From Paraprevotella sp. (lineage in GTDB: Bacteria > Bacteroidota > Bacteroidia > Bacteroidales > Bacteroidaceae): a stretch of 51,579 bases of DNA. The position numbers and the translations under genes are program-made. The DNA lies in NCBI GenBank assembly GCA_017937925.1, contig JAGBCQ010000028.1, positions 1 through 51,579 on the forward strand. The letters run 5' to 3'. This document shows, in pieces, positions 1-48,674 of this stretch (position 1 is its first letter; the number at the start of each line of letters is the position of its first letter). The notes under the pieces were generated by a model, which was not told the origin of the DNA, did not search any database, and saw only the letters and a program-made list of their open reading frames with translations.

Positions 1-1590
1 GATAGTACGAAACTTTCCATCCCCTTGTCCCAATTGCCAACGGGAGTGAACCAATTGACCGTTCATGACGGAGAGGGTAGAATCTATGCCGACCGTTTAG
101 TTTTTGTACGCCATGCCGAACTTCCGACAACGACGTTACAGGTTGAAGGCTTAAAGAACCAATACGCGCCTTACGAAGAAATAGAATTAAAGTTATCCCT
201 AAACGATACATCAGCAATAACCGGTAGCCATGTTTCCTTGTCCGTTCGCGACCGTTCGACGGATGAGCCAAGTCACGATGATGGAACGATGCTGACGGAG
301 ATGTTGTTGGGTAGTGAGTTGAAAGGCTTTGTAGAGAGTCCCGGTTATTACTTTGAGATGGACGACAGCATTCATCGCAAACATTTGGACCTGTTGATGA
401 TGGTACAGGGTTGGCGTCGTTATGAATGGCGTAAGATGGCTGATGTTGAGCGTTTTGACTTGCCTTATCTGCCTGAGAAATTCCAGACGATTGGTGGGTG
501 TGTTAATAAACATAGGGAAAATTATGATATTGATTTCAAGAAAGCCAGTAACTTGAAAAATGAAGTAAACGTGTGGGCAATGTTCGCACAAGGCAAGGAT
601 GTTTATGAATTGATGCAACCAACAAATGGAGGCACATTCTATTTCCGTATTCCGAAAATATATGGTTCTTATACTTTATTTCTGTCGGCAGCCAAGCAAA
701 CGCAAGGTATTGATTATATCATCAAAAGACGTCAGAAAGATTTTATGGATGAAGAGGCGTATTCTGACTTTTATGTGAAGTTGGATAATTTTTATCCATT
801 TTATGCAAAACCATATAATTACTATCAAGATTCGGCTCCCGAGAGAATATTCCATGAAGGTGATGATGGTTCTTCAGTACATGATTTCACGAATAGAACA
901 TTAGAGACTGTTGTTATCAAGAGTAAACGTAACGGCTTGCGCAGATATGATAAATCAAAACCGGCTATGGTGATAGATGCATACGAGGCATACAATATGT
1001 TACAAGATTATGGTATCTATTCTGCGCCGATGGAGGAATTAACTATAAATAAATTGCCATCACTGATATCACAGCTTTATGTTGGTGATATGAATTTGTA
1101 TCGTTCCTATTTTGTTCAAGTACGTTACAATGGAAGACCTTATATAACAAAAGATGGAGGTTATACATTTTCTATAAATATAAATAAAGACAATAAGTTA
1201 ATGAGCAGATTAGACAAATGTTATATCTATACTGATTATTGTCCGCGAGAGCAAGGCAGTTGGAAATATCAGCAAGACAATCAGCCGGAAGTGATAATAG
1301 ATTTAAGGACTTATCCAAATGATGGCTATTATCCGATATGTCGCGACCGCCGTATCATCTTGAAGGGTTACTCTGTTTGTGATGATTTTTACAGTCCCGA
1401 TTATAGTCAAAAACCGCTTCCTGAAGTGAAGGACTACCGTCGTACGTTATTGTGGATACCCAACGTCCGATTCAATCAAAACGGTCAGGCAATAGTCCGC
1501 CTATATAACAACAGTAAACCATCTGTTCTAAGTCTAGAAGCAGAGGGCATAACGAGCAAAGGCAGTGCGGTTGTGTATAAGACAGAATAA
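1..1590 (+). CDS. Macroglobulin-like / TonB-plug surface protein, 3' part (5' end outside window)
   Basis: The reading frame is open from base 1, so the gene starts upstream of the window; the first in-frame start-like codon (TTG at 25) is not a real start. The beginning resembles the end of an MG2-type beta domain (PTGVNQLTVHDGEGRIYADR). The middle, around RNGLRRYDKSKPAMVIDAYE, resembles a TonB-dependent-receptor plug-like segment. The end (RRTLLWIPNVRFNQNGQAIV...) resembles the last beta domain of Bacteroidota proteins annotated as macroglobulin/carboxypeptidase-regulatory plug proteins. Such proteins are usually exported to the cell envelope, and their substrate is unknown. Family assignment is from remembered motifs, not a search. 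Nothing here indicates truncation other than the window edge. Confidence 0.6.
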   Translation, partial: DSTKLSIPLSQLPTGVNQLTVHDGEGRIYADRLVFVRHAELPTTTLQVEGLKNQYAPYEEIELKLSLNDTSAITGSHVSLSVRDRSTDEPSHDDGTMLTEMLLGSELKGFVESPGYYFEMDDSIHRKHLDLLMMVQGWRRYEWRKMADVERFDLPYLPEKFQTIGGCVNKHRENYDIDFKKASNLKNEVNVWAMFAQGKDVYELMQPTNGGTFYFRIPKIYGSYTLFLSAAKQTQGIDYIIKRRQKDFMDEEAYSDFYVKLDNFYPFYAKPYNYYQDSAPERIFHEGDDGSSVHDFTNRTLETVVIKSKRNGLRRYDKSKPAMVIDAYEAYNMLQDYGIYSAPMEELTINKLPSLISQLYVGDMNLYRSYFVQVRYNGRPYITKDGGYTFSININKDNKLMSRLDKCYIYTDYCPREQGSWKYQQDNQPEVIIDLRTYPNDGYYPICRDRRIILKGYSVCDDFYSPDYSQKPLPEVKDYRRTLLWIPNVRFNQNGQAIVRLYNNSKPSVLSLEAEGITSKGSAVVYKTE

Positions 1591-1733
1591 ACTCACAAAT
1601 TTTAAAAATATTTCATGTATTTAGAGTGATTTCAGAAAAATGCGAATATTCGTATCAATCCATTCTGACCGTTACAACTTGTTTATCAGTAAAATAACTT
1701 GTTTTTGAGAGAATGAAAATGCGAACTCTTTTC

Positions 1734-1765
1734 TTTGGTTTTTTCTGTTGCATTACTTATTTTTG
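1734..1765 (+). promoter_or_regulatory. Bacteroidota-type promoter (TTTG-N20-TATTTTTG)
   Basis: TTTG at 1734-1737 and TATTTTTG at 1758-1765 match the Bacteroidota -33/-7 consensus with a 20-nt spacer. Transcription would start near 1772, about 35 nt before the ATG at 1806. The rest of the 1591-1805 gap is AT-rich with no gene that I can see. Confidence 0.6.
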
Positions 1766-1805
1766 CAAAAACATGAGTTTAAATTCGGTTTATATAGATT
1801 AAGAT

Positions 1806-2471
1806 ATGGCAAAGGAGCATGTTTTAATTAAGTTCTTGACAAGAATATTTTTACCATTGTTAATCATTGGTGTGTATTTGTTAGTAGACTTTATTTTAAA
1901 TGCACTTTTTGCAAACATACAAGGTGGAGAGTCTGTAAGAGTCTCAAGTTTATTTTATCCTCTTTTCCTTTTTATCTTTCCATTGCTTTTATTGTTGCAT
2001 GGTTTGATCAGTAAAATAAGCATGTATATCACTTTTAACTTGAGACCGATGTTGTATGTGATATTGGGAGTTTTTCTTTTCTTGACTATATTATCCTGTT
2101 ATAAATCCACTTCGGTTATTGTTGCCATTAGGAGTATAGTTGATTTGGCTGTGCTTGCAGGGTTAGTTCTTTTATATTTTAAATTGTTAAATTGGGCGAG
2201 GGAAGCACAATCGAAACAGTTAAGCATAAAAATGCGATTCGGTTTAGGTTTGTTAAGTGCTATAATCATCTTTTCCTATTCCTTAATATCTCTATTGAGT
2301 AGAATGGGTTTGACGGATTATACTGTATCTATTCTATATGCCGGTAGTATTGTATCGTATGCATGGTATGTAATGATAGCGTTGTCGAGATATAATTGGC
2401 TCAAAATACTGATGCTTATAATAGCATTAGTAAACATCATACTATTAAATGATTTGTTGTCCAAATATTGA
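1806..2471 (+). CDS. Polytopic membrane protein of unknown function
   Basis: I do not recognise this family. The 221-aa product is strongly hydrophobic, with about six predicted membrane-spanning stretches separated by short basic loops (for example around residues 75-77 and 135-145). It has no obvious catalytic motif. It starts at ATG 1806 behind a clear promoter and ends 50 nt before the secreted LRR gene in the same direction, so the two could be co-transcribed. The codon usage looks AT-rich, as expected for hydrophobic Bacteroidota proteins. A role in the inner membrane is the only safe inference. Confidence 0.6.
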   Translation: MAKEHVLIKFLTRIFLPLLIIGVYLLVDFILNALFANIQGGESVRVSSLFYPLFLFIFPLLLLLHGLISKISMYITFNLRPMLYVILGVFLFLTILSCYKSTSVIVAIRSIVDLAVLAGLVLLYFKLLNWAREAQSKQLSIKMRFGLGLLSAIIIFSYSLISLLSRMGLTDYTVSILYAGSIVSYAWYVMIALSRYNWLKILMLIIALVNIILLNDLLSKY

Positions 2472-2521
2472 TGAGTAATAATTATATCATGAAATCATAG
2501 TTAAATCTAAATAATATTATT

Positions 2522-4096
2522 ATGAAAAAGATTGCTTTGTTAATGTTGGTCGGATGGATGCTGTACTCACAAACTTATGCAGCACAAACTTTTGAAAAAG
2601 GAATTTTGAAGTTTACGGTATTGGAACAGAGCCGAGAAGAGTCACAAGCAGATTCTGTCGTTAAGGTGTCAAGTATAGACCGATTGACAGCACTTTCGGC
2701 ATCACTTTTCGGTAAAGTACTGACCATACCGGGTTATGTTGAGCATAACGGTTGTAAGTATCAAGTCCGAAAAGTAGATAATGAGGCATTCAGCCATTGT
2801 GATTATATTAAGGATATTATTATAGAAGAAGGAGTGGAGGAAATCGGAGAAGCGGCATTTTCGCATTGTTTTGGTTTAAAATCCTTATCTCTGCCGTCCA
2901 CAGTAAATCATATTGATTTATCATCTTTCACTATGTGCGCCAATTTGGAAGTGATTACAGTGGCAAAGGAAAATAAATTCTTTGATTCACGCGAAAATTG
3001 TAATGCCATAATAAACAGTAAAGACAATGAGTTGTTTTTAGGTTGTCATACCAGCATAATCCCTAATGATGTCACAGGCATTGGTGAGATTGCCTTTTCT
3101 GGTTGCGTTTATCTTACCAATATCATCATTCCCGAGGGTGTGGAAAAGATCGGTGCATGTGCATTCTTTGATTGTGTGAGTCTTAAACGGATAGATTTTC
3201 CTTCAACTTTAACCAGTTTAGGACAAGGCACTTTCTCCGGATGTAGCGCTTTAAAGAGTATTGATATTCCGGAAAATGTGAATAAGATTGAAGGACATTT
3301 GTTCAACGGGTGCTTGTCCCTTACCACTATTAACGTGGATAAGAAGAATAAGGTTTATGACTCACGTCAAGGATGTAATGCCATCATAGAAACAACTAAT
3401 AACCGACTCATCTCTGCTTGTTCCACAACAAGAGTGCCTAAAGGGGTAGAAGAAATAGGAGAGTTGGCTTTTAGAGGTGTTGTTCTTACTCAAATAGAGA
3501 TTCCGGAAAGTGTAAACAGAATACATGAAAGAGCATTTAATGGAAGTGAGATTCTGAGCGCAAAAATAGGCAAGAACAATTCTGTTTATTATATGCCAGA
3601 TGGCAGTAATACGCTCATTGAAAAAGCGACCAAACGATTAGTGGTTGCCTTTCATAATCCGACCATTACTGCTGATGTAGAGATTATTGGCAAGTATGCT
3701 TTCTCGCATTGCAGATTACCTCGTATAATGGTAATTCCTGAAGGAGTTAAGGAGATAGAAGAGGATGCCTTTAGTTATACTACAGGTATTGCGAACGTTT
3801 TCTTCCCGAAATCAATGGAACAAATCGGTCGTTCTGCATTTGCCTACAGCACGATTTATACATTAGACTTCAAAAGTCCATTAAAAGAGGTAGAGTCCTA
3901 TACTTTCAAGAGATGTGACAATTTGCAAGTTGTCAATATACCTGAGGGTACTGAGGCTATACGAAGTGGGGCGTTTGCCGGTTGTCAGCGATTGTGTTCA
4001 GTAACGTTGCCCAATAGTCTGAAACAAGTAGATAAGCATGCGTTTGTCGGAACGCCATGCAACGATGCCATTCGCCGATTGCTTGATAAGCAATAA
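2522..4096 (+). CDS. Secreted BspA-type leucine-rich-repeat protein
   Basis: The 524-aa product begins with a typical signal peptide (KKIALLMLVGWMLYSQTYAA). The rest is tandem LRR_5 (BspA/TpLRR) repeats of about 23 residues with the pattern IPEGVEEIGxxAFxxCxxLxxIxLP, for example around residues 100, 195, 310 and 425. Interspersed segments such as FDSRENCNAIINS mark the longer insert repeats seen in Prevotella and Bacteroides BspA-like proteins. Proteins of this family are exported and in oral species bind matrix proteins or other bacteria; the ligand here is unknown. No C-terminal sorting domain is obvious, since the protein ends in NDAIRRLLDKQ. The start at 2522 is set by the signal peptide. 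Confidence 0.85.
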   Translation: MKKIALLMLVGWMLYSQTYAAQTFEKGILKFTVLEQSREESQADSVVKVSSIDRLTALSASLFGKVLTIPGYVEHNGCKYQVRKVDNEAFSHCDYIKDIIIEEGVEEIGEAAFSHCFGLKSLSLPSTVNHIDLSSFTMCANLEVITVAKENKFFDSRENCNAIINSKDNELFLGCHTSIIPNDVTGIGEIAFSGCVYLTNIIIPEGVEKIGACAFFDCVSLKRIDFPSTLTSLGQGTFSGCSALKSIDIPENVNKIEGHLFNGCLSLTTINVDKKNKVYDSRQGCNAIIETTNNRLISACSTTRVPKGVEEIGELAFRGVVLTQIEIPESVNRIHERAFNGSEILSAKIGKNNSVYYMPDGSNTLIEKATKRLVVAFHNPTITADVEIIGKYAFSHCRLPRIMVIPEGVKEIEEDAFSYTTGIANVFFPKSMEQIGRSAFAYSTIYTLDFKSPLKEVESYTFKRCDNLQVVNIPEGTEAIRSGAFAGCQRLCSVTLPNSLKQVDKHAFVGTPCNDAIRRLLDKQ

Positions 4097-4189
4097 AACT
4101 AGTATGATATAAAAATATGCTGCGAGGAGATTGTCAATATTTATGACAGTCTCCTTTTCTCTTCTCTCAATGAGTTTTTTTAAATCATG

Positions 4190-4350
4190 TTTCATGTTTC
4201 ATTTTTCTTCAAAACGCCTCTATTTATGCGGAGTTTGGAGTGAAACATGATGTTTCACCATGTTTCACTTTTTTGATGGACGTTCGTCATCAAAATTACC
4301 TACTGATGTCATCGCGACGACGGACGTCCGGCACTGTAACGACGGACGTT
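4190..4350. repeat. Palindrome-rich intergenic repeat, copy 1
   Basis: The 4097-4465 gap holds no gene. It contains TTTCATGTTTCAT-type runs, a perfect palindrome TGAAACATGATGTTTCA near 4241, a hairpin TTGATGGACG/CGTCATCAA near 4273, and several GACGGACGT blocks. A 23-nt stretch at 4308-4330 recurs in inverted orientation at 44545-44567, downstream of the tRNA genes. The region separates the convergent LRR and porin genes. Its role is unknown; it could be a REP-like element. Confidence 0.6.
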
Positions 4351-4465
4351 TCGCGTTTTTATGATGAACTTTCAGAATGGAATGAACCTTGTGAAGTAAA
4401 AATTTTTCAAGGCTAAAAAAGCAAAAAATGAGATTGTAATAATTTTTCTTGATTAAAGTCCGGCT

Positions 4466-6706
4466 TTAATTAAAGAAATTCCATGAAAGTCCGAAGTGGA
4501 TGTTCAGTGGATTGATAGGGTAGTGAGGCACTAAAAATGCATTCTTTGTTCCGGTACCTTCATTCACATGGTTCACGTTGACGTAGAAACGGCAATGTTT
4601 CAAATGGAAATTGACGTAAGCATTACAAATAGGGTAGTTTCCTAATTTGATGCGTGTAGTTGGGTCCTGAACAGTGAATTGTTGAACGATGGGCGCATAG
4701 TCAGGTGCGTAATATTCGGTGAAATAACGCACGTCGGCTCCCAGCTGAACACGTAAAACCTTAGCGATACGGAACACAAGGTATATGTTGCTATATGCAG
4801 TGAGTGCCGGTAGGGGGAGAATGTCCTCGTTGCTCGACTTTTGATAAGCGATTTCATTTTCCCAATTAAAGATGCCGAACTTGAAATTCTGATTGAGTTT
4901 CGCGCTGAATACTTGGACGCTGTTGCCATATTGATTTACTTGGACACTGTTGCTGTAACCTGCCAATTCGCCTTTGTCATTGTCATACCCTGTTTTTGTA
5001 GTGGCGAAGTAAGCATAGTTCTTGATGTTCTCCGCACCTACAGTCAGTTTGGTTCTAGTGCGGTCGATGGCTAGCGTTCCTTCAATACGGGTGCGGAACT
5101 CCTTATCCAAATTGTTGTCCCACCAAGCATGTTTACTGTGGTAATGACGCATATAGAAACTTGGATTCAAGTTTTTGATTGAGGCACGCGCTTCCAAACG
5201 AACGGTGTCTTTAAACAAGGGGAAATTAAGGTCGGCATTTCCTTCAATGTCGAACTGACCGATGTCTTCGCCCAACAACACCACTTCGCCGGTTACGTCA
5301 TAATGAAGTGTCTTGCCCAACCGTTTGTTTAATTGTCCGCCGACGGAAACATTGTTCTCGGAATAGCCATTTTCAACCAGCAGACCATCCTGTAGCCCCG
5401 GCATTGTGAAATGACGGTATTCGTGTGCCGCAAAAGCAGTCAAGCCGAACTTAGCCCATTTTTTGAACCCCTCGCGTATGGACACTCCCAACGTGTTCTT
5501 TATGGAGATGCCTCGTGTGCGGTCGCTCATCTTATCGGTCGGATTGCCATAGTAATTGTTGGTATAAAAATGCTCCGGCGTTGCGTAAGAATATACCGTA
5601 TGTTTTGCGTTACGGATGCGCAAGGTGTGGATAAAACTGCTCACAGGAATGAATTCCTGTACTTTTTCCTGCTTGTCGATAAATGCTTGTTTCAGTGAGT
5701 CAAGCACAAGGTTCTTATAGGTTTCGTTGGCTTGGTTATAAACGGTTCTAAGACTATCGCGCAAGCCACGCAGTAAGACAGAGTCGGCAGGCATTTCAGG
5801 TTTCAGCGAGTCGGGGACTTCAAGGTCCTTATAAAAACCTAAGTTGTAACGATGTGTGAGATAATAAGTTTGGTCCTCGTTTCTGTTCCATGATTCGGTA
5901 AGGTTGGTGGGGATGTCTTTTGACCCATACGAACGTGTGTAATCCTCCGGGTGGGTAATGTAGTTGTCATCCTCGATACCGCCGTTTTCTCCCATACGCA
6001 TGTGGTTGACACTGACCCATGCGTGCATGTCGTAGCGCTCACCACGATAATATCCGTAAACCGAACCATTGAACAGTGATGTGGCTTGGCTGTTGTAATA
6101 GCCTCTACCATAGAGATAATCCAACTTGAATCCGATACCGGAAATTTTGTTGATATTCGTGGCGAAGTACGCCCGTAAGCGGTCCTCACCGTTCTGCTTG
6201 TTACCACATGAATGGTAGGACAGGTTGGTAATGGGACTCAGAGTATTGGTAAACAGAAACTCATTGACCGGTGTGTAAAAGTAGTCAAACGGGTCAGCAA
6301 AGATAAAGTTGCTGTACGGTTTGCGGTCCATAAACAAGCGCGAAAGGCGTGGTGAACCCAAGTTGCCGAGGAAATTGTATTGTCCTGTCGGACCGGCTGT
6401 GAGATTGAAATTCTGGAAGTTGTCCGGCAAAGTGTCAACTTCGGCAGGTAATATGTTACCGAAACGTTCATCGATTTTCCATGCGAATGAACCGATGGGG
6501 TACTCTATCTCTTCCGTTTCTGTCGTGTCACGCCCCCAAATGTAACTGTCGTGATTGTGACCATCGGTGATAGGATTGCCATATTCGTCAACGGCATTTC
6601 CAAACTGGTCTGTTCCGAAGCCGCTATTATTCAACGGGAATTGTGCTTTTACAATTCCTGTTGTAATGATACCGAATACGATGAAAATTAGGATGCGCAA
6701 TCTCAT
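4466..6706 (-). CDS. Putative outer-membrane porin (Bacteroidota putative porin family)
   Basis: The 746-aa product has a signal peptide (MRLRILIFIVFG...VKAQ) when started at ATG 6706. A longer reading to 6751 would put 15 extra residues before the signal, so I prefer 6706. The body consists of alternating aromatic-rich amphipathic strands and ends in LSWNFFN, with a terminal aromatic residue as in outer-membrane barrels. The N-terminal FGTDQFGNAVDEYGNPI segment and the overall layout match the Bacteroidota putative porin family (PF14121-like). It should form a channel in the outer membrane; the substrate is unknown. It stands alone, convergent with the LRR gene. Confidence 0.75.
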   Translation of the reverse strand: MRLRILIFIVFGIITTGIVKAQFPLNNSGFGTDQFGNAVDEYGNPITDGHNHDSYIWGRDTTETEEIEYPIGSFAWKIDERFGNILPAEVDTLPDNFQNFNLTAGPTGQYNFLGNLGSPRLSRLFMDRKPYSNFIFADPFDYFYTPVNEFLFTNTLSPITNLSYHSCGNKQNGEDRLRAYFATNINKISGIGFKLDYLYGRGYYNSQATSLFNGSVYGYYRGERYDMHAWVSVNHMRMGENGGIEDDNYITHPEDYTRSYGSKDIPTNLTESWNRNEDQTYYLTHRYNLGFYKDLEVPDSLKPEMPADSVLLRGLRDSLRTVYNQANETYKNLVLDSLKQAFIDKQEKVQEFIPVSSFIHTLRIRNAKHTVYSYATPEHFYTNNYYGNPTDKMSDRTRGISIKNTLGVSIREGFKKWAKFGLTAFAAHEYRHFTMPGLQDGLLVENGYSENNVSVGGQLNKRLGKTLHYDVTGEVVLLGEDIGQFDIEGNADLNFPLFKDTVRLEARASIKNLNPSFYMRHYHSKHAWWDNNLDKEFRTRIEGTLAIDRTRTKLTVGAENIKNYAYFATTKTGYDNDKGELAGYSNSVQVNQYGNSVQVFSAKLNQNFKFGIFNWENEIAYQKSSNEDILPLPALTAYSNIYLVFRIAKVLRVQLGADVRYFTEYYAPDYAPIVQQFTVQDPTTRIKLGNYPICNAYVNFHLKHCRFYVNVNHVNEGTGTKNAFLVPHYPINPLNIHFGLSWNFFN

Positions 6707-44174: not shown

Positions 44175-44261
44175 GGAAGTGTGGGTGAGTGGCTGAAACC
44201 ACCAGTTTGCTAAACTGACGTGCGGGTAACCGTACCGGGGGTTCGAATCCCCCCGCTTCCG
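44175..44261 (+). tRNA. tRNA-Ser (anticodon GCT)
   Basis: The acceptor stem GGAAGTG pairs with CGCTTCC. The anticodon loop TTGCTAA gives GCT (reads AGC/AGU). The long variable arm TGCGGGTAACCGTA and the T-arm GGGGGTTCGAATCCCCC are typical of tRNA-Ser. No CCA is encoded. Confidence 0.95.
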
Positions 44262-44270
44262 CAAAGAAAT

Positions 44271-44342
44271 GGCGCTTTCGTCTAGCGGCTAGGACACATG
44301 CCTCTCACGCATGGAACACGGGTTCGATTCCCGTAGGCGCTA
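44271..44342 (+). tRNA. tRNA-Glu (anticodon CTC)
   Basis: The anticodon stem CATGC/GCATG encloses CTCTCAC, giving CTC (GAG codons). The T-arm is ACGGGTTCGATTCCCGT. The acceptor GGCGCTT/AGGCGCT has a G1-U72 wobble. No CCA is encoded. It lies 9 nt after tRNA-Ser. Confidence 0.93.
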
Positions 44343-44351
44343 CAAAAGTAA

Positions 44352-44404: not shown

Positions 44405-44613
44405 TCATTTTATGAAACATGATGAAACATGATGTTTCACTTCAAAATCCGCATTTACAGAGGGGTTGCAAGAGAAAGTGAAACATGAAACATGATTTGA
44501 AAACATATGTAAATGCGCGCACGCGCGCGAGAGGTGTTTCATGTCGGACGTCCGTCGTCGCGATGACGAACGTCTTGCGTTTTGTTGACGGACGTCCGTC
44601 ATTTTGATGACTC
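44405..44613. repeat. Palindrome-rich intergenic repeat, copy 2
   Basis: It holds the same palindrome TGAAACATGATGTTTCA as copy 1, further GAAACATG repeats and several GACGGACGTCC blocks. The 23-nt block at 44545-44567 is the reverse complement of 4308-4330. A 16-nt alternating purine-pyrimidine run lies at 44514-44529. No gene is present in 44386-44719. Confidence 0.65.
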
Positions 44614-44719: not shown

Positions 44720-44750
44720 TTGGTTGTTCTCATATTAAGAGAGCAACCAA
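44720..44750 (-). terminator. Hairpin in the left inverted repeat
   Basis: TTGGTTGTTCTC and GAGAGCAACCAA form a 12-bp stem (one wobble) with loop ATATTAA. On the minus strand it is followed by T6ATT, a good intrinsic terminator for transcripts from the promoter at 44761-44792. On the plus strand T4 follows. Confidence 0.7.
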
Positions 44751-44925
44751 TTTTCAAATGCAAATGTAATTATTTAAAATCTAATAACAAAAGAAAGTTT
44801 ATAAAACATTCGTTTGTTGGTAAATGTGTTATAAATGTTTTAAATCTGTAAACGTAGATATATGCAAATATAATCAAAGAGAACGATTTATATATTTCGG
44901 TTGCTCTCTTAATATGAGATAAACC
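44722..44925. repeat. Candidate invertible promoter segment flanked by 27-nt inverted repeats
   Basis: The left repeat (44722-44748) and the right repeat (44899-44925, reverse complement) match at 25 of 27 positions, with 21 identical in a row. They flank 150 bp holding a canonical promoter on the minus strand, which now faces away from the DGR operon. The size and plan match Bacteroidales phase-variable promoters. No recombinase gene is in the window; known Bacteroidales invertases can act in trans. Confidence 0.6.
44761..44792 (-). promoter_or_regulatory. Canonical promoter pointing away from the DGR
   Basis: On the minus strand TTTTG (44792-44788), a 19-nt spacer and TACATTTG (44768-44761) match the consensus. 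It now points left to no gene. After inversion of 44749-44898 it would start near 44893, about 75 nt before ATG 44968. Confidence 0.7.
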
Positions 44926-44967: not shown

Positions 44968-45444
44968 ATGAAGACGAAAATTTTTCTTTTTGCGATGTTA
45001 TTTACATTGGTTTCATGTTCTACAGTTTCAGCACAGTTTTACAAACGTAAGAAAGTAGCGATTACAGAAGTGGTTGACAAAACCGGTGATGTTTCCGACG
45101 GTACAAAAGTATTTGTGCGTAGCGCGTTGACCGATGCCATAACCAATTCAGATGGGTATGAAGGCTATGATAAGATTAGCTTTATGACGCTTGAAATGAA
45201 TTTTGATAAGACAGGAAGTATCTCAACCGCAACACTGACTTATGTAAAAAAGCAGTTGATGGATTATATTCTAGTTGCAGAGATTACTCCATTGGATAAA
45301 AAGACCGTATTATTAAGTGCCCGTATTGTAAATGCTTCAACAGGTAAGATTGTTGCGTCTTCCTCTGTGAGAACATACGCACATATCGATTATTTGAATC
45401 CGGCTTGCAGAAACTTAGCTTGTAAATTAGTTGGTGCCATCTAA
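44968..45444 (+). CDS. Small lipoprotein/exported protein of the DGR locus (CsgG/LpoB-like fold guess)
   Basis: The 158-aa product has an export signal with a lipobox-like LVSC (Cys 17); cleavage after VSA-Q is an alternative. The mature part aligns by eye with the N-terminal domain of the next protein: GTKVFVRSALTDAITNSDGY against GTKQLIRQSIIDACTNAEGY, with a V-x-D-type strand just before. The pattern recalls CsgG/LpoB-type envelope proteins, but this is a guess. It ends 7 nt before the DGR target and is probably the first gene of that operon. Confidence 0.7.
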   Translation: MKTKIFLFAMLFTLVSCSTVSAQFYKRKKVAITEVVDKTGDVSDGTKVFVRSALTDAITNSDGYEGYDKISFMTLEMNFDKTGSISTATLTYVKKQLMDYILVAEITPLDKKTVLLSARIVNASTGKIVASSSVRTYAHIDYLNPACRNLACKLVGAI

Positions 45445-45451
45445 ATAGGAT

Positions 45452-46825
45452 ATGATAATGAATAAGAATAACTTTTTATTGTTGCTCCTATCTATAGCTG
45501 TTTTTCTGCCACAATCTCTATTAGCACAAACCTTCAATATTTTTGCAGATGAACAAATAATGGTAGCCGGTGTAATTGACCGAAACGACAGAAAATTAAA
45601 TGAGGGCACAAAGCAACTTATCCGTCAGAGTATTATAGATGCTTGCACTAATGCGGAAGGTTATGAAATAAGCGAAGTAAATATTGATGATATAAAAACG
45701 GAATTAACTAAATTAGGCAAACCGCATACTCCGCAAAATATGTGTGAGATGATAGGTAAAAAAGCTAACGTTAAATATATAGTTTTTCCTGAAGTACGTT
45801 TGAGTACCACTGATATAAATGCCAAAGATATAAAAGTGTATATCGATGGAACTTTATTTAGGATAGAAACAGCTTCGCAAATGAGAAGTCATACGGTAGG
45901 GTGCTTTTCAAATTCACAATCATTACAGTTGGCTACTGCTGATTTGATAGAAACGTTATTGGGCGTGAAAGTGAACAGGCAGAATCTATTAGCCATAAAT
46001 ACTACCACAACTCAAACACAAGAATCATCGGATACAAATTCTAATAAAGTTCAAATAAATCAACAAGTAGAAAATCAACAGCAGTCTCAGGATTTTGTTG
46101 AAGATGCAGGAGTTGGACTTAACATGAAAATGATTTATGTAGATGGTGGGTCTTTTCAAATGGGAGCCACACCTGAACAAAATGGAGAGGCGGAGAGTAA
46201 TGAAAGCCCCGTACATACAGTGCAGTTAGAGTCATTTTATATTGCAGAATGTGAAGTGACACAGGCACAGTGGCAAAAGATTATGGGAACAACTATTTTT
46301 CAACAACGTGATAAAAGTGATGCTTCTTGGTCGGTTTATGGTGTTGGAGATAATAATCCGATGTATTATGTCAGTTGGGAAGAGGCTCAAATGTTTTGTC
46401 GTGAATTAAGTGCGATGACCGGTAAGACTTATCTGTTGCCTACAGAGGCGCAGTGGGAGTATGCCGCACGTGGTGGAAAGAAAAGCAGAGGGTATAAATA
46501 TAGTGGGAGCTATGCTATTGATGCTGTTGCATGGTATAGTAGCAATAGTGGTAGCGCAACTCATTGGGTTAAGCAGAAACGTGCCAACGAATTGGGTCTT
46601 TATGATATGAGTGGTAATGTATGGGAGTGGTGTAGTGATTGGTTTGGGAATTATTCGTCCGCAACGCAGAGCAATCCGACAGGTGCGGTTTCCGGTTCCT
46701 ACAGGGTGCTTCGCGGCGGTAGTTGGCTCAGCAAGGCTGGTAACTGTCGTGTTTCTCGTCGTGACGGTAACGCGCCTTCCGGCCGTAACTACGCTGCCGG
46801 TTTTCGTGTTGTTTGCCTCCCTTAA
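45452..46825 (+). CDS. DGR target: exported protein with C-terminal FGE-sulfatase/C-type-lectin-like variable domain
   Basis: The 457-aa product has a signal peptide (FLLLLLSIAVFLPQSLLAQ). An N-terminal domain of about 140 residues is paralogous to the preceding protein. A Gln/Asn/Ser-rich linker (about residues 190-222) follows, then a formylglycine-enzyme-like domain from about residue 225 (MIYVDGGSFQMGATPEQNG, YYVSWEEAQMFCRELS, LLPTEAQWEYAARGG, LYDMSGNVWEWCSDW). Residues 418-457 are the variable region, where 11 residues differ from the template. The FGE fold here is probably a ligand-binding lectin scaffold, not an enzyme. ATG 45458 is an alternative start. Confidence 0.92.
   Translation: MIMNKNNFLLLLLSIAVFLPQSLLAQTFNIFADEQIMVAGVIDRNDRKLNEGTKQLIRQSIIDACTNAEGYEISEVNIDDIKTELTKLGKPHTPQNMCEMIGKKANVKYIVFPEVRLSTTDINAKDIKVYIDGTLFRIETASQMRSHTVGCFSNSQSLQLATADLIETLLGVKVNRQNLLAINTTTTQTQESSDTNSNKVQINQQVENQQQSQDFVEDAGVGLNMKMIYVDGGSFQMGATPEQNGEAESNESPVHTVQLESFYIAECEVTQAQWQKIMGTTIFQQRDKSDASWSVYGVGDNNPMYYVSWEEAQMFCRELSAMTGKTYLLPTEAQWEYAARGGKKSRGYKYSGSYAIDAVAWYSSNSGSATHWVKQKRANELGLYDMSGNVWEWCSDWFGNYSSATQSNPTGAVSGSYRVLRGGSWLSKAGNCRVSRRDGNAPSGRNYAAGFRVVCLP
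46703..46823 (+). repeat. DGR variable repeat (VR)
   Basis: It aligns without gaps to the template repeat at 48363-48483 (offset 1660). There are 18 differences in 121 positions; 17 are at template adenines and one at a template T (46766). It ends at the target stop codon. The last 27 nt are identical, as expected for the initiation-of-mutagenic-homology region. Confidence 0.95.
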
Positions 46826-46853
46826 GTTCAATTAGGAGCATTTAGGAGTAAGA

Positions 46854-46876
46854 GCAGGATAAGGGACTAATCCTGC
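46854..46876. other. Hairpin downstream of VR
   Basis: GCAGGAT (46854-46860) and ATCCTGC (46870-46876) form a 7-bp stem with a 9-nt loop, 30 nt after the VR. DNA hairpins just after the VR help retrohoming in the Bordetella phage DGR, and this may be the counterpart. Confidence 0.5.
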
Positions 46877-46908
46877 GATGCGAGTAAATGTGTGTGATAA
46901 AATGATGT

Positions 46909-47373
46909 ATGCAAATAAAAATATTTGATTTGCCCTCACGAGGAGGAGAGCAAGCAGTAGAGGATTTGAATAAGTTCCTAAGAGGGCACAAAATACTTGA
47001 TGTAGATAGACAGTTTTATGTATCTTCGGATAATGTGGGACATTGGTCTATTGTGGTAACTTTTTTGTCCTCGGATATATCAAATGGTCATCAAGAAAAG
47101 AAAGAAAAAATTGATTATAGAGAGATTCTTGACCCTGTTGCATTTGATAGATTTGTCAAACTTCGTGCTATTCGAAAGAAACTAGCAGCCGATGATGCTG
47201 TGCCAGCATATGCTGTTTTTACAGATGCTGAGTTGGCTCAAATAGCTCAATTGGCAGACTTAGATGCAACAAAGGTTGCAAGGATTTCCGGTATAGGTGA
47301 GAAAAGGATAGAAAAGTACGGAAAAGTTCTTTGCGAAATGTATAAAGAGCAGGGACATGAAACGCTCAAGTGA
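46909..47373 (+). CDS. DGR accessory protein with HRDC domain
   Basis: The 154-aa product has an N-terminal region of about 70 residues (IKIFDLPSRGGEQAVEDLNK, VSSDNVGHWSIVVTFLSS) and a C-terminal HRDC domain (DPVAFDRFVKLRAIRKKLAA, VPAYAVFTDAELAQIAQL, KVARISGIGEKRIEKYG). HRDC-type proteins replace Avd in a subset of DGRs and probably bind nucleic acid and assist the RT. It overlaps the RT gene by 17 nt, so translation is coupled. No Avd-like four-helix protein is present. Confidence 0.88.
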   Translation: MQIKIFDLPSRGGEQAVEDLNKFLRGHKILDVDRQFYVSSDNVGHWSIVVTFLSSDISNGHQEKKEKIDYREILDPVAFDRFVKLRAIRKKLAADDAVPAYAVFTDAELAQIAQLADLDATKVARISGIGEKRIEKYGKVLCEMYKEQGHETLK

Positions 47374-48361
47374 TTTAATGCCTCGAATTGTTGAGGTTGA
47401 GAATCTCTTGTTGGCTTATTATAAAGCAAGACGAGGAAAACAAAGTAAGGAACCTGTAATTCATTATTCAAAAAACCTCTATTCAAATATATTGAAGTTG
47501 AGGGAAGAGTTGTGTAATGAATCTTATGTAGTGGGTCGTTACCATTATTTTAAAATATTTGATCCAAAGGAAAGACAGATATGTGCCGCATCTTTTCAAG
47601 AACGTGTTATACATCATGCTGTCATAAATGTTTGTAAACAACGTTTTGAATCTAATTTAATTTACGATACTTACGCCTCAAGAGAGGGTAAGGGTGTATA
47701 TGCCGCTATTGATAGGGCTAAATATGGATTAAGTAAATATCCTTATGTTGTTAAGCTTGACGTACGAAAATTCTTTGACTCTGTATCTCATGATGTTTTA
47801 AAAAAGCAGTTGTGTCATTTGTTTAAGGATAAAAAACTATTAAGACTTTTTGATTGTATAATAGATTCTTATGAAACAGAACCCAATAAGGGGATTCCTA
47901 TAGGAAATCTTACAAGTCAATATTTTGCCAATCTCTATTTATCTCAGTTGGATCATTATATAAAAGAGGTATTACACGTACCCGTTTATGTCCGATATAT
48001 GGACGATATGTTATTATTTGCTACGGATAGAGCCATGATAAAAAAATACATGGTGGAAGTTTTGAATTATGTAAATGATGTACTTTTTTTGAATCTTAAA
48101 CCACCGCAAATTGTGCGTACATTAAATGGAGTTTCATTTCTTGGTTATTTAGTGCGTTCAGACAAAATCTTGCTGAACAGGCGTAGTAAGATAAGGTTTA
48201 AAAGGAAGATGATGCGTTATATTAAAAATGTTGATGAGGGTAAGTGGACCCAAAAACAATATATGCAGCATGTTATTCCGCTGATGGCTTTTGCTTGTAA
48301 AGCACGTACAAGGCGCTTACGAGAGACTATCTGTGCAACAATTGAGGGTAACAATCATTAA
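47357..48361 (+). CDS. DGR reverse transcriptase
   Basis: The 334-aa RT copies the template RNA with errors at adenines. The domains run in order: [20 protein letters not shown] (RT1-2 region), [20 protein letters not shown] (RT3), the DGR-typical [17 protein letters not shown] with SQ in place of the usual QG (RT4), the active site [11 protein letters not shown] (RT5), and [11 protein letters not shown] (RT7). MKRSSDLM at 47357 is the likely start; ATG 47378 is possible. It has no maturase or endonuclease domain, which argues against a group II intron. It looks AT-richer than flanking housekeeping genes. Confidence 0.96.
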
Positions 48362-48362
48362 G

Positions 48363-48483
48363 AGGGTGCTTCGCGGCGGTAGTTGGAACAACAAAGCTAG
48401 TAACTGTCGTGTTTCTAATCGTAACTATAACACACCTTCCAACCGTAACAACAATACCGGTTTTCGTGTTGTTTGCCTCCCTT
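48363..48483 (+). repeat. DGR template repeat (TR)
   Basis: It starts 1 nt after the RT stop and copies the 3' end of the target gene in the same frame. It contains 30 adenines in 121 nt, many in AAC/AAT codons (for example TGGAACAACAAAGCTAGT), the codons that give most amino acids after A mutation. An open frame running through it (48291-48509) is not a gene. Confidence 0.95.
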
Positions 48484-48564
48484 TAGCTCAGTTTGGATGG
48501 ATCTCCTAATTGAACAGATTGTTGTCCGTTCTCTTTGAAGAGAAAAAAGGATGGGGAAACCCTA

Positions 48565-48609
48565 AAAAAGAGGTGTTAGTAAACGAATCAGTTGAAAGCT
48601 CCTCTTTTT
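48565..48609 (+). terminator. Probable terminator after the DGR
   Basis: AAAAAGAGG (48565-48573) pairs with CCTCTTTTT (48601-48609) across a 27-nt loop, ending in a T5 tract. Confidence 0.5.
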
Positions 48610-48674
48610 GACTTTCTTAATTATAGTAACGATAAAAAACTAACGTTTGTCTGTGTATTTCTATGTATTTATCG

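Follow-up and report, generated by a model that had tools for sequence, protein, structure and literature searches.

Complementarity between the start of the spacer RNA and the flank of the variable repeat in an HRDC-type diversity-generating retroelement of Paraprevotella

In the diversity-generating retroelement (DGR) of Bordetella phage BPP-1, an adenine inside the spacer RNA primes the cDNA, which stays joined to the RNA, and the entry of DGR cDNA into the target has been described as incompletely understood (PMC12875486). Guo et al. proposed a hairpin after the variable repeat (VR) as a conserved requirement, with a GC-rich stem of 7–10 bp and a 4-nt GRNA loop in the BPP-1 type, and the transcript containing the template repeat (TR) was among the possible partners of the loop (PMC3240598). 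HRDC is named among the known DGR accessories (PMC10053308). Here we analyzed a DGR in a 51,579-nt stretch of DNA from Paraprevotella sp. (assembly GCA_017937925.1, contig JAGBCQ010000028.1), hereafter called the window. Judging from its sequence, this chromosomal locus carries a DGR of the HRDC type whose target has an FGE (C-type-lectin-like) fold. The cassette belongs to an already known group, in which HRDC-type DGRs have FGE-fold targets, Treponema denticola being an example. The part that is absent from an earlier note on this DNA is a complementarity between the sequence following the VR and the sequence following the TR.

All positions given are those of the window, and all features of the cassette lie on the forward strand. 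The VR (46703–46823) and the TR (48363–48483, starting 2 nt past the stop codon of the reverse transcriptase (RT) gene) form an ungapped alignment at an offset of 1660. We use V for the approximately 35 nt past a VR and T' for the approximately 35 nt past a TR, which are the start of the spacer RNA. In the window, the segment of V that is complementary to T' lies at 46826–46855 and its partner in the spacer RNA at 48486–48515; related loci share this feature. A 13-bp inverted repeat joins 46826–46838, 2 nt past the VR, to 48503–48515, 19 nt past the TR. This exact helix of 13 bp is followed along V by 8 bp at 46839–46846, four of them G-U, and by 4 bp at 46852–46855 (GAGC). The full duplex has 25 bp (13 exact and 12 further pairs) with an energy of –28.6 kcal/mol, and its arms make an inverted repeat with 1664 bp between them. 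The 13-bp match was equalled in 1 of 20,000 mononucleotide shuffles.

The complementarity is conserved among related loci. The DGR loci that we compared with the window carry L-numbers. Counts out of 64 cover the loci among 68 with a TR/VR pair that had enough flank, which four did not, and include the window and L005, which lacks an HRDC match, unless stated otherwise; the counts of hairpins and of flank combinations leave out L005. For comparison we used 58 viral DGRs with a TR/VR pair, none of which has an HRDC match. Exact V:T' pairing of at least 10 bp occurred in 45 of 64 loci versus 2.4% of 4032 mispaired combinations, and in none of the 58 viral DGRs. The helices of the relatives are near-continuous and usually stronger than those of the window. 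When duplex energies were compared with dinucleotide shuffles, z was below –3 in 46 of the 64 loci and in 0/58 viral DGRs. An unanchored ranking placed 47 of the 64 genome loci, and again none of the 58 viral DGRs, in the best 5%. The effect is specific to one pair of flanks: post-VR with post-TR scored in 45 of 63 loci, five other flank combinations in 0, and direct repeats in 2 of 63. For the DGRs tested, V:T' pairing as a universal feature was rejected, with z of –1.2 for BPP-1 and a mean z of –0.23 in the viral set.

We repeated the comparison with the end of the TR placed by R1, a covariance model of the post-TR spacer made from 28 loci, the window among them. The input to this anchored test was 73 loci, consisting of 46 of 50 model matches and 27 other members of the model (28 of the 73 being model members), and T' sequences with identical first 16 bases were not counted as foreign. 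In 51 of the 59 loci anchored, the own T' ranked above at least 95% of the foreign ones, and exact pairing of at least 10 bp was present in 48 of 59. A further 29 loci, mostly close to earlier ones (L248 and L251 repeat L039 and L065), included nine without a TR/VR pair and one with a short flank; 13 of the 19 tested have at least 9 bp of exact pairing. Among the loci tested, the pairing is restricted to part of the RT tree. All 51 pairing loci fall inside one clade of 67 tips (support 0.90), which is the best-separating clade on a midpoint-rooted FastTree tree. This clade holds 67 of the 68 genome tips and 12 non-pairing loci, and the one tip outside it is L005.

V and T' also covary. The outer helix, X1, has at least 12 of 14 Watson-Crick pairs in 41 of 57 loci versus 5.1% of mispaired combinations; this set is without L005 (no HRDC), six loci with uncertain ends (L013, L027, L065, L069, L070 and L083) and four with short flanks. 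Among 35 distinct T' sequences with at least 9 of 14 pairs, every column contains three to four Watson-Crick pair types. The rows behind a count of 439 of 490 pairs were preselected for at least 9 of 14 pairs at their own anchors, and a mispaired control with equal search freedom was therefore used instead. Joining V and T' end to end for an RNAalifold consensus gave no information, since the alignment put the helices in the wrong places, and anchored counts were used instead. The several pair types per column and the preference for the own partner point to continuing selection on V:T'.

The same pairing is biased toward G-U. In Watson-Crick-only alignments of 44 non-redundant loci there were 995 Watson-Crick pairs, 55 G-U pairs, 6 A-C mismatches and 49 other mismatches. 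The G-U to A-C ratio is thus 55:6, whereas the mispaired controls give 497:268 (Fisher p 1.7e-5); composition alone does not account for this excess of G-U. Since this excess is on the sense strand, it suggests that sense-strand T' meets sense-strand V as single strands, at least one of which is RNA.

Most of the extra VRs examined carry V too. This is the case in L028, L039, L042, L057, L059, L066, L075 and L079, where a TR serves two to three VRs. Some VRs of L042, L057, L075 and L079 have rank fractions of 0.06–0.14, because close relatives share T'. In this set, L061 is cut by a contig end and the ends of L070 are uncertain. The L176 copy, which is on another contig, has a pairing energy of –38.0 kcal/mol. 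Four genomes have two to four DGRs each, and there the own T' was the best partner or tied for best in 13 of 13 rows, with two ties. An end of conservation at V was not seen in the flanks of second VRs. Separately, we observed that L021, L030, L049 and L053 are four HRDC-type DGRs of one Saprospiraceae metagenome-assembled genome (MAG), ACE_BAC21, each with its own V/T' match.

We also compared the pairing with the hairpin known from phage-type DGRs. Of the 58 viral DGRs, 25 have a strong post-VR hairpin, against 0.7 expected; 17 of these have a 4-nt loop and one has a GRNA loop. In the genome set the count was 3 of 64 loci (1.05 expected), these being L026, L068 and the window, and a strong post-VR hairpin as a rule in the HRDC clade was rejected on these numbers. 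The hairpin of the window (46854–46876) comes after V and has a 7-bp stem (4/7 G/C) and a 9-nt loop; it is strong by our score and is not of the phage type with a 4-nt GRNA loop.

From these data we propose that the spacer takes part in finding the target. The RT and the HRDC protein would copy the TR RNA, making errors at its adenines, and the mutated cDNA would overwrite the VR at the 3' end of the gene for an exported, FGE-fold binding protein, a step that we infer from homology and from the A-biased TR/VR pair. The first approximately 35 nt of the spacer RNA (T') would base-pair with V, the approximately 35 nt after the VR on the sense strand, and would in this way mark the target site, for which phage-type DGRs use a hairpin. 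The end of T' at 48515 stands opposite 46826, the third base past the VR. T' is followed directly by the A of GAACAG (48516), which we propose as the priming adenosine from a comparison with the BPP-1 spacer by eye. If the cDNA stays joined to the RNA, the chimera 5'-T'(RNA)-cDNA-3' would be one colinear complement of the target strand 5'-VR-V-3', and T' could be the anchor by which the cDNA reaches the end of the VR. Pairing with target DNA, guidance of homing and the priming adenosine are thus putative parts of the scheme. We consider it fairly probable that this is an HRDC-type DGR whose spacer T' recognises V to guide homing, with T' as the anchor. The wider proposal, that HRDC-type DGRs are RNA-guided, with a spacer that pairs beside the VR, does the work of the phage hairpin and keeps co-resident DGRs on their own targets, seems to us about equally likely to be right or wrong.

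Several observations weigh against guidance by V:T'. The exact criterion behind the clade count is failed by 13 of the 64 loci, and 14 of the 73 loci could not be anchored for want of a resolvable VR. The loci share ancestry and are mostly MAGs, and the counts are not independent. The window itself is weaker than most related loci; its inner helix alone is strong, and the outer helix is short and includes four G-U pairs. Its own T' ranks at 0.016 in the unanchored ranking and only at 0.155, which is not significant, in the model-anchored test, because the outer helix is poor. The window has both a strong hairpin and a V:T' match, so the pairing there does not simply replace the hairpin. Similarly, a strong hairpin and pairing are both absent from 33 of the 58 viral DGRs, and hairpin and pairing are therefore not simple alternatives. 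At the extra VRs, the third VR of L026 is without a clear V, and the L176 copy differs at A in only 16 of 34 sites and may not be a VR of that TR. Finally, multi-VR loci often conserve sequence past V, to 75–110 nt, and V may be part of a longer site or may have been carried by duplication.

The main rival explanation is that V and T' pair as RNA with RNA at the transcript level, either within a polycistronic transcript or between the target mRNA and the TR RNA, and that this serves template folding, processing or priming with no recognition of the target DNA. The G-U bias fits this at least as well as it fits an RNA-DNA duplex, and V and T' are in one gene run in the window and in most loci, with V directly before the TR in L055. 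However, V is kept at extra VRs downstream of the TR (L028, L042, L057, L066, L079 and others), which a single cis fold would not need, and V occupies the place of the target-site hairpin of BPP-1 (PMC3240598). We regard RNA-RNA pairing as unlikely, though it deserves to be taken seriously. It is improbable that the locus is an ordinary DGR in which V:T' is a functionless relic of TR copying from the VR. Some V regions do sit within long conserved flanks, as a relic would, but a relic does not lead one to expect several Watson-Crick pair types per column or a preference for the own partner. Least credible, and in our judgement very nearly negligible, is an inverted repeat that acts at the DNA level, in inversion, recombination or termination, and flanks HRDC-RT-TR by chance: the arms in the window do form an inverted repeat, but this gives no reason for G-U over A-C mismatches, and the pairing persists under other gene orders (L015, L055, L075) and at second VRs.

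If recognition of V by T' is true, T' amounts to a short address that can be read, and a DGR would be readdressed by changing both V and T'. In the HRDC-type DGRs examined, the hairpin is near chance (3/64) while the spacer RNA and the target site commonly match and covary, which suggests how such cassettes may find their target. The match gives a two-sided mutational test and a means of assigning extra VRs to a TR, and it is a possible rule for orthogonal targeted diversification. In the parts of the open-access DGR literature covered, post-TR/post-VR complementarity goes unmentioned; this scope held PMC4891356, PMC3240598, PMC12875486, PMC6642488, PMC3521204, PMC10053308, PMC10907252, PMC8867640, PMC4372165, PMC7159879, PMC8144416 and PMC7517822 (the last without any relevant term), and the main 2018 survey, subscription papers and most preprints lay outside it.

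The spacer RNA that follows the TR (48484–48614; alignment A1, model R1) has conserved GGATGG, GAACAG and TTGTCC motifs and a distal TTAGT/GAA stem. At E up to 0.1, model R1 recovers 49 of the 54 other genome loci; the three weakest matches have E 0.0034–0.032. In 84 other loci, including BPP-1, its best match has E 0.036 and lies between the TR and RT of L005. By eye, a CAG..TGTCC core and the small hairpin following it are common to window-type and BPP-1 spacers; a MAFFT alignment did not place the core against BPP-1 that way. We take the priming position of BPP-1 to be A56. In the Rfam searches made, no family scored above its cut-off for the window spacer. The RT-14 family (RF02921) has a weak match over its full length exactly at the spacer, 48481–48610 (25.7 bits, E 0.85; cut-off 48.1). 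The spacers of HRDC-type DGRs may be related to RT-14, but up to E 1 none of 11 related loci matched this family. No Phage_DGR (RF03022) match was found in the window spacer or in the HRDC-type loci scanned. As a separate observation, positions 2564–2663 of L168, downstream of an Algoriphagus TR, have a sub-threshold SAM-riboswitch-like match (27.7 bits; cut-off 44.4).

The earlier note had called 44968–48609 a complete DGR, and the open reading frames (ORFs), Pfam matches and TR/VR alignment bear this out; target, VR, HRDC, RT and TR are all present in one direction, and the target, HRDC and RT genes are intact. Re-alignment of the repeats over 121 bp reproduced exactly the earlier counts of 18 differences, with 17 of 30 TR adenines affected versus 1 of 91 other TR bases; here the hypergeometric p is 8.6e-12. 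The 17 changes are made up of 12 A>G, 3 A>C and 2 A>T. The sole difference off the TR adenines is a T>G at 46766, and none falls on the 13 adenines of the VR itself. Read in the frame of the target, 17 of 40 TR codons have A at codon position 1 or 2, ten of them being AAY. No third copy of the repeat was found in the genome assembly (2.06 Mb, 33 contigs, 78.6% complete).

The target gene (45452–46825) encodes a protein with a signal-peptide-like N-terminus, an N-terminal domain of unknown family and a C-terminal FGE/C-type-lectin-like domain. The FGE fold proposed earlier holds up, with PF03781 (FGE-sulfatase) matching aa 225–454 at E 9.5e-53, and the best profile match among solved structures being the T. 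denticola DGR variable protein TvpA (2y3c, E 7.5e-67). The VR is at the 3' end of this domain and is thus placed, by prediction, in the C-terminal C-type-lectin-like domain of the target. The hydrophobic N-terminus, ending LLAQ, predicts export. The HRDC accessory gene (46909–47373; 154 aa) overlaps the start of the RT gene, and HRDC (aa 80–143; PF00570, E 3.3e-13) is its sole Pfam match. No Avd family was among the Pfam matches of the seven ORFs scanned, the rest of the genome not having been searched for Avd. The RT (47357–48361; 334 aa) matches PF00078 (RVT_1) at E 8.3e-17 and a phage RT PHROG at E 7.9e-97, and its translation carries the YMDD reported before and an SQ motif, as in DGR-type RTs. 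The earlier note began the interval of the element at 44968, and the first ORF there is not the target; 44968–45444 is a separate ORF for an exported-type protein of 158 aa, akin to the N-terminal domain of the target (mutual phmmer matches). It is possibly a paralogue upstream of the target, and it also adjoins the target in L008, at 54% identity. The 158-aa protein has a below-threshold FlgO-like match (E 0.0014). It was also observed that 44968–45444 and the N-terminal domain of the target (45530–45976) resemble two copies of a single exported domain, and that this pair has weak matches to FlgO and a TP0183 family, both under cut-off.

The cassette type is uncommon among the genomes sampled. 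Of 395 genomes sampled from the phylum, 20 have a close RT (E up to 1e-75), and a single family accounts for 19 of the 20. Under strict filters R1 matches 6 of 395 genomes sampled from the class, counting that of the window. Among 17 other genomes of the window's genus, three have a related RT (E up to 1e-20), one of them close (57%). An HRDC match was present in 79 of 80 related genome_contigs loci, the exception, L060, being cut off at the RT. FGE-like ORFs occurred in 75 of 86 sequences, a count in which the window appears twice (L003, WIN) and some matches are TR read-through. A gene for an M24 peptidase follows the cassette, and it and the next two genes, presumably tsaD and cinA, keep their order in 15 other genus genomes. 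In these 15 genomes no cassette gene was found in the 1.5 kb upstream of the peptidase gene, so the cassette at this site is seen only in the window's genome. On the other side of the cassette, genes for tRNA-Ser and tRNA-Glu lie at 44175–44343, ending approximately 600 bp ahead of it. Between these genes and the cassette is a MITE-like (miniature inverted-repeat transposable element) 27-nt inverted repeat (44722–44925; 93%), whose arms are 150 nt apart and whose left arm contains a tight palindrome; the MITE reading was rejected on finding no second full copy in the genome assembly. Two 31-nt near repeats (77%) at 44537–44611 are based on a GGACGTCC palindrome.

By its RT the host of the cassette stands near Alistipes. 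Of the systems compared, the nearest by RT are three DGRs of Alistipes MAGs (L008, L009 and L010, from goat, roe deer and water deer gut), whose RTs are 57–63% identical to that of the window and which likewise have HRDC and an FGE target; they differ in that the window genes outside the cassette are unmatched in the stretches compared. The window resembles BPP-1 (NC_005357, bases 1–6000) in its RT, its A-biased TR/VR pair and a spacer RNA after the TR with a CAG...TGTCCTG core that is similar by eye. By contrast, BPP-1 has Avd where the window has HRDC (PMC3240598, PMC12875486). BPP-1 also has a post-VR hairpin with a GAAA loop, a V:T' duplex that is not above shuffles (z –1.2) and a spacer that matches Phage_DGR (RF03022) at 104.7 bits. 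In the T. denticola DGR (TvpA/TDE2269), the accessory gene is between the TR and the RT with the TR upstream (group 1a), whereas the TR of the window comes after the RT (PMC4891356). That element and the window are nevertheless alike in having an FGE-fold variable protein, an HRDC gene overlapping the RT gene and exported or lipoprotein targets (PMC4891356).

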